Source: an uncultured Chromatiales bacterium (lineage in GTDB: Bacteria; Pseudomonadota; Gammaproteobacteria; Steroidobacterales; BM003). Taken from it: a DNA stretch of 37,977 bases. Within the stretch, counting starts at the first letter, position 1. Each line of letters starts with the position of its first letter. Of this stretch, positions 22,463 to 27,489 are shown piece after piece. The stretch is from the NCBI GenBank assembly GCA_937128475.1, contig CAKZML010000254.1, positions 1 to 37,977 on the forward strand, given 5' to 3'. The position numbers and the translations under genes are program-made. The notes beneath the pieces are model-generated. The model made no database searches and was not told the origin of the DNA. It worked only from the letters and a program-made list of their open reading frames with translations.

Positions 22463-23812
22463 TTAGCGAATGACCAGCACGATGCTGCGATTTGCCCGTC
22501 GCAATTGCAGCAACAGGGAGTTTGCATCGCTGGCCGCCTCGGCCAGTTCCTCGGTAGTAGTGACTCGCTGCCGGTTAACTCGCAGGATCAGGTCGTTGGG
22601 CCGCAGGCCGTTGGCGAATGCCGGGCTACCTTGTTCAACAGCACTGACCTGTACGCCCTGTGAGCCATCGTAAGCGGCGCTCTCTGGTGTGACGGTCTCG
22701 AAACTGGCGCCTGCCAGGCCCGGATGAACATCCCCGGCGCTGACCGGTCCGGCAGCTGACTGGCCCAGCTTGGCGGTGACAGTGCGTTGCTTGCCATCAC
22801 GTAGCAAGACGATCTTCACCGATTCCCCGGCACCGTGCATACCAATGCGCAGGCGCAGGGATGCGGCATCGGTGACCGCTTCGCCATTCACTGACAGCAC
22901 CACGTCGCCGGGTTCCAGGCCAGCTTTCTCGGCCGCCGACCCAGGCATGACCTGGGAGACCAGGGCGCCGCCAGAGGTGTTTAGCTTCAGGCTTTTGGCC
23001 AGGTCCGGGTCTATGCTTTGCACGCTCACTCCCAGCAGGCCCCGCCGCACCTCGCCGAACTCCAGGATTTGCTCCAGCACGCTGCGGACCATATTGGAGG
23101 GGATGGCGAAACCGATGCCGACGCTGCCACCTGAGTTGGAAATAATGGCTGAATTGATACCCAGTAGTTGGCCTTTGAGGTCGATCAGCGCGCCACCTGA
23201 GTTACCCATGTTGATGGCTGCGTCTGTCTGGATGAAGTCTTCGTAGTTCTCGTTGTTCAGGCCGGAACGTCCCAGGGCGCTGATGATCCCGGAGGTCACC
23301 GTATGCTGTAGCCCAAACGGGTTGCCGATGGCGACCACAAAATCTCCCACCCGCGCTGCACTGGAGTCCGCGATGGGGATTTCGTGAAGGTTATCGGGAT
23401 CCACTTTCAACACGGCGATGTCGGACAGCGGGTCGCTGCCAATGACTGTGGCATCCAGGGTTCGCTTGTCCAGCAGGGTGATTCGAATTCGGTCTGCCCG
23501 GTCCACAACATGGTGATTGGTCAGGATGTAGCCGTTTTTCGCATCTACGATCACACCTGAACCGCCGCCACGAAATTCCCGGTTCTGGCATTGGGGAAAC
23601 TGGCTGAAAAAAGGATCCGAGCACATTGGGTGCGCCGGTCCGGCCTGGCCCATGACCGCGATATTCACTACGGCGGGTGAAACCCGCTCGACCAGCGGCG
23701 CCAGCGTAGGTAGCGCCTGGCCGTCGACAAAGGCAGGCAGCGTTGCGCTGGCCAGATTGCTGAAACTGGTCAGAACCACGGCGACCAGCAGGCTTCGTAG
23801 GGTAATAGTCAT
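22463..23812 (-). CDS. DegP/DegQ (HtrA/MucD)-like periplasmic serine endoprotease with two PDZ domains
   Basis: Triad motifs TNHHVVD, LSDIAVLKVD, AAINMGNSGGALIDLKGQLLGINSAI; PDZ GSAAEKAGLEPGDVVLSVNG and GSPAFANGLRPNDLILRVN. Confidence 0.95.
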   Translation of the reverse strand: MTITLRSLLVAVVLTSFSNLASATLPAFVDGQALPTLAPLVERVSPAVVNIAVMGQAGPAHPMCSDPFFSQFPQCQNREFRGGGSGVIVDAKNGYILTNHHVVDRADRIRITLLDKRTLDATVIGSDPLSDIAVLKVDPDNLHEIPIADSSAARVGDFVVAIGNPFGLQHTVTSGIISALGRSGLNNENYEDFIQTDAAINMGNSGGALIDLKGQLLGINSAIISNSGGSVGIGFAIPSNMVRSVLEQILEFGEVRRGLLGVSVQSIDPDLAKSLKLNTSGGALVSQVMPGSAAEKAGLEPGDVVLSVNGEAVTDAASLRLRIGMHGAGESVKIVLLRDGKQRTVTAKLGQSAAGPVSAGDVHPGLAGASFETVTPESAAYDGSQGVQVSAVEQGSPAFANGLRPNDLILRVNRQRVTTTEELAEAASDANSLLLQLRRANRSIVLVIR

Positions 23813-24003: not shown

Positions 24004-24034
24004 TGTGGACAAATTGTGGGTAATTTGTGGAAAA
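24004..24034 (+). promoter_or_regulatory. Three tandem DnaA-box-like 9-mers at 11-bp pitch
   Basis: TGTGGACAA (24004), TGTGGGTAA (24015), TGTGGAAAA (24026). The third is the complement of TTTTCCACA, matching TTWTNCACA; the other two have one mismatch. Confidence 0.55.
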
Positions 24035-24041
24035 CAGGTGA

Positions 24042-24057
24042 ACACAAGATATTGTGC
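24042..24057. promoter_or_regulatory. Candidate NrdR box 1
   Basis: ACACAAGATATTGTGC, 14/16 match to ACACWATATATWGTGT, upstream of nrdJ. Confidence 0.6.
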
Positions 24058-24166
24058 TGAAGTATCTTTGACTTAAGCCGTGAAAATTCAATGCTGATTT
24101 TAGCTTGATTTTGTAAGTCATTGTTTTATATAGACTAAGTCAATAGCATCTAATTATGTTCAAGTC

Positions 24167-24195
24167 TTGACATCCGAGCGCTCTGGGAATAGTCT
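24167..24195 (+). promoter_or_regulatory. Predicted sigma70 promoter of nrdJ
   Basis: TTGACA (24167-24172), 17-bp spacer, TAGTCT (24190-24195). Confidence 0.65.
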
Positions 24196-24205
24196 TTTCC
24201 CTCGA

Positions 24206-24221
24206 ACACAACATCTTGTGT
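24206..24221. promoter_or_regulatory. Candidate NrdR box 2, just downstream of the predicted +1
   Basis: ACACAACATCTTGTGT, 14/16 match to the NrdR consensus; perfectly symmetric outer ACACAA/TTGTGT arms. Confidence 0.65.
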
Positions 24222-24356: not shown

Positions 24357-26507
24357 ATGAAAATCGCTGAAGAATTAGTAAATACGGGGGTGTCTGACAT
24401 CTCTTTTCAAGCTGCATCACTTGATATCTGGGATAAAAAATATCGCCTCAAGGCGAAAGATGGTCAAAACGTCGACGACACCATTGAGGACACCTATGAG
24501 CGTGTCGCCAGGGCGCTTGCCGATGTGGAAGCACCGGAAAAGCGTGAGGAATGGTATGAGCGTTTCGTTTGGGCGCTGAGCCAGGGAGCTATTCCCGCAG
24601 GCCGCATCATGTCCAACGCCGGGGCCCAGGACCACAAGCCTGCGACCTCCACCATTAACTGCACCGTCTCGGGCACTATCCGGGATTCCATGCATGACAT
24701 CCTGGACAAGGTTCATGAGGCTGGACTGACCTTGAAGGCCGGTTGCGGTATTGGTTACGAGTTTTCCACCCTGCGTCCCAAGGGCGCGTACGTATCCGGC
24801 GCCGGAGCCTATACCTCAGGCCCGCTGTCCTTCATGGATATCTACGACAAGATGTGCTTCACCGTGTCATCGGCCGGTGGTCGCAGAGGCGCCCAGATGG
24901 GCACTTTCGACGTGGGCCATCCAGATGCCATCGAGTTTATTCGCGCCAAGCGCGAGGACGGTCGCCTGCGCCAGTTCAACCTGTCGTTGCTGGTGACCGA
25001 TGGCTTTATGAAGGCTGTCAAAGACGACGCCGACTGGCCCCTGGCCTTTCCGGTGAGTCATGAAGAAGTGGATGAGGATAGTCTGAACCTGGCCGATCCC
25101 AGTTCAGTGATCTGGCGAGAATGGCCCAATCATGACAAGTCTTACGTCATCGATGATGCTGGCCTGGTGGCTTGCAAGGTTTACAAGACCCTGCCTGCCC
25201 GTCGCATCTGGGATGTCATCATGTCCTCGACCTACGATTACGCGGAGCCGGGCTTCGTGCTGATCGACAAGGTCAACGAAATGAACAACAACTGGTGGTG
25301 CGAAAATATCCGTGCCACGAATCCTTGCGGCGAACAGCCGCTGCCTCCCTACGGCTCATGTCTGCTGGGTTCAGTGAACCTGACCCGTTTCGTGGTCAAC
25401 CCGTTCACCGAAGAGGCTTACTTTGACTGGGATGAGTACCGCAAGGTCGTGAAGGTATTCACTCGCATGCTGGACAACGTGGTGGAGATCAACGGTCTGC
25501 CCCTGGGTCGTCAGCGCGACGAGATTAACCGCAAGCGCCGTCATGGCATGGGTTTCCTGGGACTGGGTTCTACCGTCACCATGTTGACCATGAAGTACGG
25601 AAGCGCCGGTTCGGTGGAGTTCACTGAGAAGGTCGCCCGTGAAATGGCGCTGGCTGGTTGGGAAGCTTCCCTGGAACTGTCACGTGAGAAGGGTCCTGCG
25701 CCGATTATGACCGAAGAGTTCACGGTCACCGGCGACATGATGCGCAAGCGTCCGGAAATGAAGGATGACGGCATCCAGGTTGGCGACAAGCTGCCCGGCC
25801 GTTTGCTGCACGCCCGTTACAGTCGTTACATGCAGCGGGTAGCCGAGCAGGCTCCCGAGTTGGTGGCTGAACTGTCCGAGGTGGGCGCGCGCTTCACCCA
25901 TCACAGTTCCATTGCACCGACCGGCACGATTTCCCTGTCACTGGCCAATAACGCCAGTAACGGCATCGAGCCCAGCTTCGCTCATCATTATTTCCGTAAT
26001 GTGATTCGTGAGGGACGCAAGACCAAGGAGAAGGTGGACGTATTTTCCTTCGAGTTGCTTGCCTACCGTGAAATGATTAATGAGCAGGCCTCTTCGGACG
26101 CAGGCACTGACGTTAACAGCCTGCCTGAGTATTTCATTACTGCTGATGAGGTCAATCCGACACAGCATGTGGACATCCAGGCCGCAGCCCAGAAGTGGGT
26201 GGATTCCTCGATTTCCAAGACCGCCAATGTACCCACGGCGTTCCCGTACGAGGACTTCAAGAACATCTATATGTATGCCTACGAACAGGGTCTGAAGGGA
26301 TGCACGACATTCCGTTTCAACCCCGAGGCATTCCAGGGCGTGCTGGTTAAGGCTAACGACCTGAAGAACACGACCTATGTGTTCACCCTGGATGACGGTA
26401 CCGAGCTTAAGCTCAAGGGTGACGAAGAAGTCGAATACGATGGTGAGATCCATACAGCGGCGAATTTGTTTGACGCGATTAAAGAGGGTTACTACGGGAA
26501 GTTCTAG
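24357..26507 (+). CDS. nrdJ: Adenosylcobalamin-dependent (class II) ribonucleotide reductase, large fragment NrdJa
   Basis: IPAGRIMSNAGAQDHKPATSTINCTVSGTI, GCGIGYEFSTLRPKGAYV, NPCGEQPLPPYGSCLLGSVNLTRFV, SSIAPTGTISLSLANNASNGIEPSFA. ATG at 24357 preferred (MKIAEELVNTG). Confidence 0.93.
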   Translation: MKIAEELVNTGVSDISFQAASLDIWDKKYRLKAKDGQNVDDTIEDTYERVARALADVEAPEKREEWYERFVWALSQGAIPAGRIMSNAGAQDHKPATSTINCTVSGTIRDSMHDILDKVHEAGLTLKAGCGIGYEFSTLRPKGAYVSGAGAYTSGPLSFMDIYDKMCFTVSSAGGRRGAQMGTFDVGHPDAIEFIRAKREDGRLRQFNLSLLVTDGFMKAVKDDADWPLAFPVSHEEVDEDSLNLADPSSVIWREWPNHDKSYVIDDAGLVACKVYKTLPARRIWDVIMSSTYDYAEPGFVLIDKVNEMNNNWWCENIRATNPCGEQPLPPYGSCLLGSVNLTRFVVNPFTEEAYFDWDEYRKVVKVFTRMLDNVVEINGLPLGRQRDEINRKRRHGMGFLGLGSTVTMLTMKYGSAGSVEFTEKVAREMALAGWEASLELSREKGPAPIMTEEFTVTGDMMRKRPEMKDDGIQVGDKLPGRLLHARYSRYMQRVAEQAPELVAELSEVGARFTHHSSIAPTGTISLSLANNASNGIEPSFAHHYFRNVIREGRKTKEKVDVFSFELLAYREMINEQASSDAGTDVNSLPEYFITADEVNPTQHVDIQAAAQKWVDSSISKTANVPTAFPYEDFKNIYMYAYEQGLKGCTTFRFNPEAFQGVLVKANDLKNTTYVFTLDDGTELKLKGDEEVEYDGEIHTAANLFDAIKEGYYGKF

Positions 26508-26727: not shown

Positions 26728-26793
26728 GTACGCCCACGTAGTCACAAACGGGGATGCTTGCTGAAACAGAGCAACGAGAGAGAACATAGAACT

Positions 26794-27489
26794 ATGACAA
26801 TCAAGATCGATCACAAGATCGTCGGGTACAAGGTGGAGAAGCCTGAGGAAGCGGCTCCCAAGGTTGATACCAAGGCGACTTCCACGGACGGCAAAGTCAT
26901 CCGGATGCACGAAAAGCTCGAGCGTCCCGAGATGCTCATCGGTTCAACCTACAAGGTAAAACCCCCGGTAGCTGACCACGCCATGTACGTCACCATTAAC
27001 GATATATTGCTCAATGAGGGTACGCCCCACGAGAATCGTCGTCCCTTCGAGATTTTTATTAACTCGAAAAACCTGGACCACTACCAGTGGATCGTGGCGC
27101 TGACCCGGATTATCTCCGCCGTCTTCCGTAAGGGTGGGGACTCGACCTTCCTGGTGGAAGAGCTCAAGGCCGTGTTCGATCCCCGTGGTGGATACTGGCA
27201 GCCGGGCGGCACGTTCATGCCCTCCATAATTGCTGAACTGGGATACATCATTGAAAAGCACATGATCAGCATTGGCCTGATCAAGGATAATGTGCTGGAC
27301 GAGCACCAGATGAAACTGGTGAATGAAAAGCGGGCCGAATACGAGGCGTCCATGCAGCAAACCGACGCTTTTGCCGACACCCAGTACCCCGAAGGCGCCC
27401 AGTTGTGTGGCAAGTGCTCCACCGCTGCGGTAATCATGCTGGATGGATGCATGACCTGCCTGAGTTGTGGCGACAGCAAGTGCGGCTAG
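26794..27489 (+). CDS. NrdJb-like C-terminal fragment of class II ribonucleotide reductase (TSCPD-type domain plus C-terminal Cys-rich zinc ribbon)
   Basis: SKNLDHYQWIVALTRIISAVFRKGGDSTFLVEELKAVFDPRGGYW; C-terminal CGKC...CMTCLSCGDSKCG; adjacent to nrdJa. ATG at 26794. Confidence 0.85.
   Translation: MTIKIDHKIVGYKVEKPEEAAPKVDTKATSTDGKVIRMHEKLERPEMLIGSTYKVKPPVADHAMYVTINDILLNEGTPHENRRPFEIFINSKNLDHYQWIVALTRIISAVFRKGGDSTFLVEELKAVFDPRGGYWQPGGTFMPSIIAELGYIIEKHMISIGLIKDNVLDEHQMKLVNEKRAEYEASMQQTDAFADTQYPEGAQLCGKCSTAAVIMLDGCMTCLSCGDSKCG

Follow-up and report, generated by a model that had tools for sequence, protein, structure and literature searches.

Does DnaA control the class II ribonucleotide reductase (RNR) gene of a bacterium in which no other RNR has been found? 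The question is raised by three closely spaced DnaA-box-like sequences upstream of nrdJ in a stretch of 37,977 nucleotides from an uncultured Chromatiales bacterium (contig CAKZML010000254.1; this whole stretch is the window in what follows). Among RNR genes, the class Ia nrdAB of E. coli is known to be controlled by DnaA, and DnaA binding has been seen at class III (nrdDG). For a B12-dependent class II RNR, no report of DnaA control was found in the open-access literature searched.

The array and its gene

The gene, nrdJ (24357..26507, plus strand), encodes an adenosylcobalamin-dependent RNR (TIGR02504, 580.9 bits with a cut-off of 399.95; PF02867 and PF00317), and no other RNR was found in this genome, which is 96% complete. 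No class I beta subunit scored above cut-off here, and only one of 59 relatives has one; a search of this genome for a class III enzyme found none. Because the genome has neither of these, nrdJ looks like the housekeeping RNR.

The 9-mers TGTGGACAA, TGTGGGTAA and TGTGGAAAA start at 24004, 24015 and 24026, exactly where the first-pass annotation had placed them and with the 11-bp pitch that it described. On the minus strand they read as three DnaA boxes in the same orientation, TTGTCCACA (24004..24012), TTACCCACA (24015..24023) and TTTTCCACA (24026..24034), with gaps of 2 bp. Each matches TTATCCACA at 8/9 bases, and the six exact-consensus DnaA boxes that surround dnaA in the same genome all have this sequence. 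A multiple DnaA box has at least two same-orientation 9-mers close to this sequence and 2 or 3 bp apart; the array has three. The annotation also had the boxes on one face of the DNA. The exact pitch stands, but the boxes lie nearly rather than exactly on one face, because 11 bp slightly exceeds one helical turn.

The array is located ~320-350 bp before the nrdJ ATG, or ~170-200 bp upstream at promoter scale. Both the AT-rich stretch next to it and the predicted -35 element TTGACA (24167..24172, plus strand) were found as claimed, the latter ~133 bp downstream of the array. The -35 is followed, after a 17-bp spacer, by a predicted -10 element TAGTCT (24190..24195, plus strand), which was read from the sequence. 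A strict sigma-70 consensus scan did not list this promoter because the -10 is weak. Neither the leader nor the window as a whole gave a credible match to a riboswitch or structured RNA in Rfam.

How unusual is such an array? Single strict boxes (TTWTNCACA) are unremarkable in the window, with 3 observed against 1.5 expected. The 3.06-Mb genome contains a single copy of the pattern TGTGN7TGTGN7TGTG and none of its reversed-pattern control. However, base-composition arithmetic gives a genome-wide expectation of ~0.4 for the bare triple, so that a lone triple at one promoter is suggestive and no proof.

NrdR boxes and an IHF-like site

Two NrdR palindromes, unmentioned in the first-pass annotation, flank the AT-rich stretch. 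The distal box (24042..24057; ACACAAGATATTGTGC, 14/16 to ACACWATATATWGTGT) begins 7 bp past the array and is kept in relatives, and the proximal box (24206..24221; ACACAACATCTTGTGT) follows the TTGACA-17-TAGTCT promoter, which places it at or just after the predicted transcription start. A TTGACA-like hexamer recurs in most relatives 39-42 bp before the proximal box. Palindromic boxes at the promoter coexist with an nrdR gene in the genome, as expected of an NrdR-controlled promoter.

The spacing of these boxes differs from that of published NrdR sites, which are pairs ~31-32 bp apart (PMC2892513). In the window the boxes are 164 bp apart and no tandem pair at ~31-32 bp is found at nrdJ; at the loci of the relatives, a companion box at this canonical distance from either box (30-33 bp) shows no enrichment. 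Instead, a pair 150-200 bp apart is present in 97 of 131 nrdJ upstream regions (85 non-redundant), with a spacing of 159-193 bp in these 85 loci and a mode of 176-179. The spacing does not strictly correspond to whole helical turns, as the 164 bp of the window illustrates, and its periodicity signal is dominated by shared ancestry. Outside the order, the nrdJ loci of Xanthomonadales and Methylococcales lack the distant pair, with one weak exception in Methylococcaceae (L128, 189 bp).

Support for the assignment of the boxes comes from genomes that have lost the regulator. A gene for nrdR was found in 54 of the 59 genomes, and four of the remaining five belong to a single family, f12, whose nrdJ promoters have no recognised NrdR box: regulator and boxes appear to have been lost together. 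In the fifth, G050 (85% complete), both boxes persist, and G012 has nrdR without a recognised box.

Between the two NrdR boxes lies an IHF-like site (24114..24126, minus strand; TAAGTCATTGTTT, 8/9 of YAANNNNTTGATW), which leaves arms of 72 and 92 bp. The IHF consensus is degenerate, and matches to it carry little weight by themselves. A match of at least 8/9 in one orientation falls between the boxes in 56 of 85 promoters against 5.6 expected from shuffling. In relatives the match is mostly 83-87 bp from the start of the distal box and 92-96 bp from the proximal one. The distal arms cluster at 72-74 and 83-87 bp, about one helical turn apart (shared ancestry included), and these two clusters fit a loop. 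One nearby relative, L003, has no IHF-like match at the expected place. The genome encodes IHF-alpha (ihfA).

Conservation of the array in relatives

Is the array maintained in other genomes? To answer this, the sequence upstream of nrdJ was taken from 59 whole genomes of the order, supplemented by public GTDB genome records, with relatives that include Woeseiaceae, Steroidobacteraceae, Povalibacter and Peristeroidobacter. Of the 131 regions, the 97 with an NrdR pair were reduced to 85 by removal of near-identical sequences (80% identity filter). The loci were then treated as independent, so that the counts below are somewhat inflated by shared ancestry. A four-genome promoter alignment contributed three usable rows, the same-family row G003 being excluded because it does not align and probably came from the wrong strand.

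When 9-mers with at least 6/9 matches to TGTGGATAA were paired in the 85 promoters, a lag of 11 bp appeared in 31 loci and one of 22 bp in 25. Smaller peaks were seen at 12 and 23 bp (10 loci each), the remaining lags between 5 and 24 bp occurred in at most 4 loci each, and the reverse strand gave at most 2. Orientation is also marked: in the 100 bp that precede the distal NrdR box, 94 DnaA-like 9-mers (at least 7/9) have the window's orientation and 7 the opposite one, and the following 100 bp upstream hold 10 of each. Among pitches of 8-15 bp, only 11 stands out, and it does so only on the array strand and only in this region; the reverse strand and the upstream control are flat. Judged against shuffled versions of the 75-bp stretch before the distal box, 43 of 84 loci have a triple at p<0.01, versus 3 of 84 on the reverse strand. 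Up to four in-register box slots can be recognised in relatives.

A stricter measure is the double DnaA box, defined by a score sum of at least 14/18 with one box at 8/9 or better. Such a box was found at 22 of the 50 order-level loci, spread over 8 of 15 families; the shuffled rate of 0.7% per locus corresponds to 0.35 expected among the 50. A double box with a 2-bp gap also occurs in family f16 (L025 and L036), here in the opposite orientation and between the NrdR boxes, ~65 bp past the distal one (TTTTCCACAagTTATCCACA in L025), as would fit a separate gain of such a site. The array is absent in f6, f11 and other families that keep the NrdR pair, and the NrdR mechanism consequently does not depend on it. 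The nrdJ loci of Xanthomonadales and Methylococcales have no double DnaA box, with one marginal exception (L129).

Conservation of the 11-bp array above background in orthologous nrdJ promoters was the test proposed for the original idea, and the array has survived it. DnaA-linked control of nrdJ is the best reading of the sequences: the array is conserved, it stays beside the distal NrdR box, the gene is the sole RNR found, and f16 has its own double box. We consider it likely that DnaA and NrdR jointly control nrdJ, as at E. coli nrdAB, with the array as one part of a wider NrdR and IHF-like arrangement that the first-pass annotation did not describe.

Other roles for the array

Could the array serve another purpose? 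One alternative is that it mainly titrates or recycles DnaA, in the manner of datA or DARS, so that its location at nrdJ is incidental to transcription. The datA and DARS2 loci of E. coli combine DnaA boxes with IHF (PMC13036160), and the window has an IHF-like site near the array. However, this site is ~80 bp off the array and centred between the NrdR boxes, not beside the DnaA boxes. Moreover, a titration site need not track one gene, whereas the place of the array is fixed beside the distal NrdR box and the f16 double box is found elsewhere in the same promoter. Titration as the main role is, for these reasons, unlikely.

A second candidate target is the divergent gene for a Do-family (DegP/DegQ) serine protease (22463..23812, minus strand), since the array occupies the intergenic region that this neighbour shares with nrdJ and is ~190 bp from the protease start. 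In relatives with a detected protease gene, the distance from its start to nrdJ ranges over 0.36-1.3 kb, but the array remains with the NrdR box on the nrdJ side, and at five loci with a double DnaA box no protease was detected upstream. Because the array tracks nrdJ, control of the protease instead is very improbable.

As for chance, an AT- and TGTG-rich stretch might be periodic by accident and be bound by nothing, or by another regulator. The genome-wide expectation for the bare triple and the ordinary frequency of single boxes leave room for this at any one promoter. Against it are the strand- and pitch-specific conservation over many families and the near identity of the boxes with those of oriC. 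For the array as a class, accident is ruled out by conservation, though not by the single occurrence, and for the window we give this explanation very little credence.

That the array is a cryptic replication origin, or a site for DnaA loading or unwinding, as the first-pass annotation had offered as an alternative, is barely credible: same-orientation boxes with 2-bp gaps beside AT-rich DNA do resemble oriC arrays, but the DnaA-box cluster of the genome, with its six copies of TTATCCACA, surrounds dnaA on another contig, which is where oriC lies, the array is neither at dnaA/dnaN nor at a GC-skew switch (the skew keeps its sign there), and the AT-rich DNA is accounted for by the promoter and the IHF-like region conserved between the NrdR boxes.

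Comparison with known systems

Joint control of nrdJ by DnaA and NrdR would have a close precedent. In vivo, E. coli DnaA is found chiefly at pairs of same-direction boxes 2 or 3 bp apart, including those at nrdA and nrdD, and the addition of one base to a 3-bp gap strongly reduces binding (PMC11317965); the pitch of the window array, with its 2-bp gap, falls within this preference. The double boxes of nrdD, purH, polA, DARS2 and datA are likewise same-direction, with a gap of 2 or 3 bp and one or both boxes imperfect (PMC11317965). The window differs from them in having three in-register boxes, with up to four slots in relatives, and in the class II RNR that they accompany.

At the E. coli nrdA promoter, a double DnaA box (3-bp gap) precedes the NrdR boxes (PMC11317965; PMC12176259). 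In both systems, then, the main RNR gene has closely spaced DnaA boxes immediately before an NrdR box. The details diverge: E. coli nrdAB is class Ia, with two plus-strand boxes 142-162 bp before the ATG and NrdR boxes ~31 bp apart, whereas the window has a class II gene, three minus-strand boxes with 2-bp gaps ~320-350 bp before the ATG, and an IHF-like site between NrdR boxes 164 bp apart.

For nrdRJ of Streptomyces and nrdJ of Pseudomonas aeruginosa, too, a pair of NrdR palindromes precedes or overlaps the promoter (PMC9110341, PMC4409342); the P. aeruginosa nrdJ paper was not found to mention DnaA. The Streptomyces boxes are ~3 helix turns apart and bridged by an NrdR tetramer (PMC9110341), in contrast to the ~15-17 turns that separate boxes of the window type.

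A possible mechanism

How might the two regulators act together? The sequences establish the sites, their conservation and their fixed placement relative to NrdR boxes and promoter; that DnaA, NrdR and IHF bind there, that a loop forms and which sign the DnaA effect has are what we infer. DnaA would occupy the three same-orientation boxes as a short oligomer, while NrdR, a dNTP-sensing repressor, would sit on one box beside the array and on one at the transcription start. An IHF-type bend between these boxes would probably let a single NrdR tetramer bridge both, giving a repression loop at the promoter, and the assembly of DnaA beside the distal box might then alter the stability of this loop. 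In such a scheme, the most economical one, the output of nrdJ would track both the dATP/ATP state, through NrdR, and the state of replication initiation, through ATP-DnaA. Would DnaA help or hinder? The sequence cannot tell, and our guess, preferred because the array abuts the distal NrdR box, is that high ATP-DnaA relieves NrdR repression.

The most specific form of this proposal is also the most tentative. It is possible, if rather less than probable, that nrdJ carries a replication-licensed loop, in which NrdR bridges two boxes, each single and 160-190 bp from the other, around an IHF bend, and in which the loop is switched by a DnaA oligomer that grows toward the distal box in 11-bp steps. 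Bridging over such a distance would be a long-range mode of NrdR for which the literature examined offers no description; an open-access search on looping by NrdR yielded nothing but looping papers on other subjects. The widely spaced boxes challenge the picture of NrdR always bridging about three turns, and they provide a direct test case for DNA looping by this repressor.

From an evolutionary point of view, the coupling of replication initiation to dNTP supply appears to have been rebuilt here around another enzyme and in another geometry, in a lineage where class II is the only RNR found. This suggests that the link between DnaA and RNR is under selection in its own right and is no quirk of nrdAB.

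Other features of nrdJ and its surroundings

Some observations fall outside this argument. In family f12 (G014, G027, G038 and G049; loci L044, L045, L041 and L042), nrdJ is kept, and the DnaA array is apparently missing along with nrdR and both NrdR boxes. The one relative of the 59 with a clear class I beta subunit (G025:C6; locus L051) has a divergent alpha-like match just upstream on the same contig.

TSCPD domains are often linked with class II RNRs. In the window, an ORF with such a domain (26758-27489, plus strand; PF12637) begins ~250 bp downstream of nrdJ and is possibly its operon partner.

Finally, in one genus (g3) and an f14 relative, nrdJ contains an in-frame insert of ~340-355 aa at about residue 325 (L048 (G004:C11), L049 and L050; also G019, G029 and G053). 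The L048 insert has no Pfam match; it does have N- and C-terminal intein splicing motifs above the NCBIfam cut-offs (TIGR01445, 28.9 with a cut-off of 24.5; TIGR01443, 16.5 with a cut-off of 15.6).
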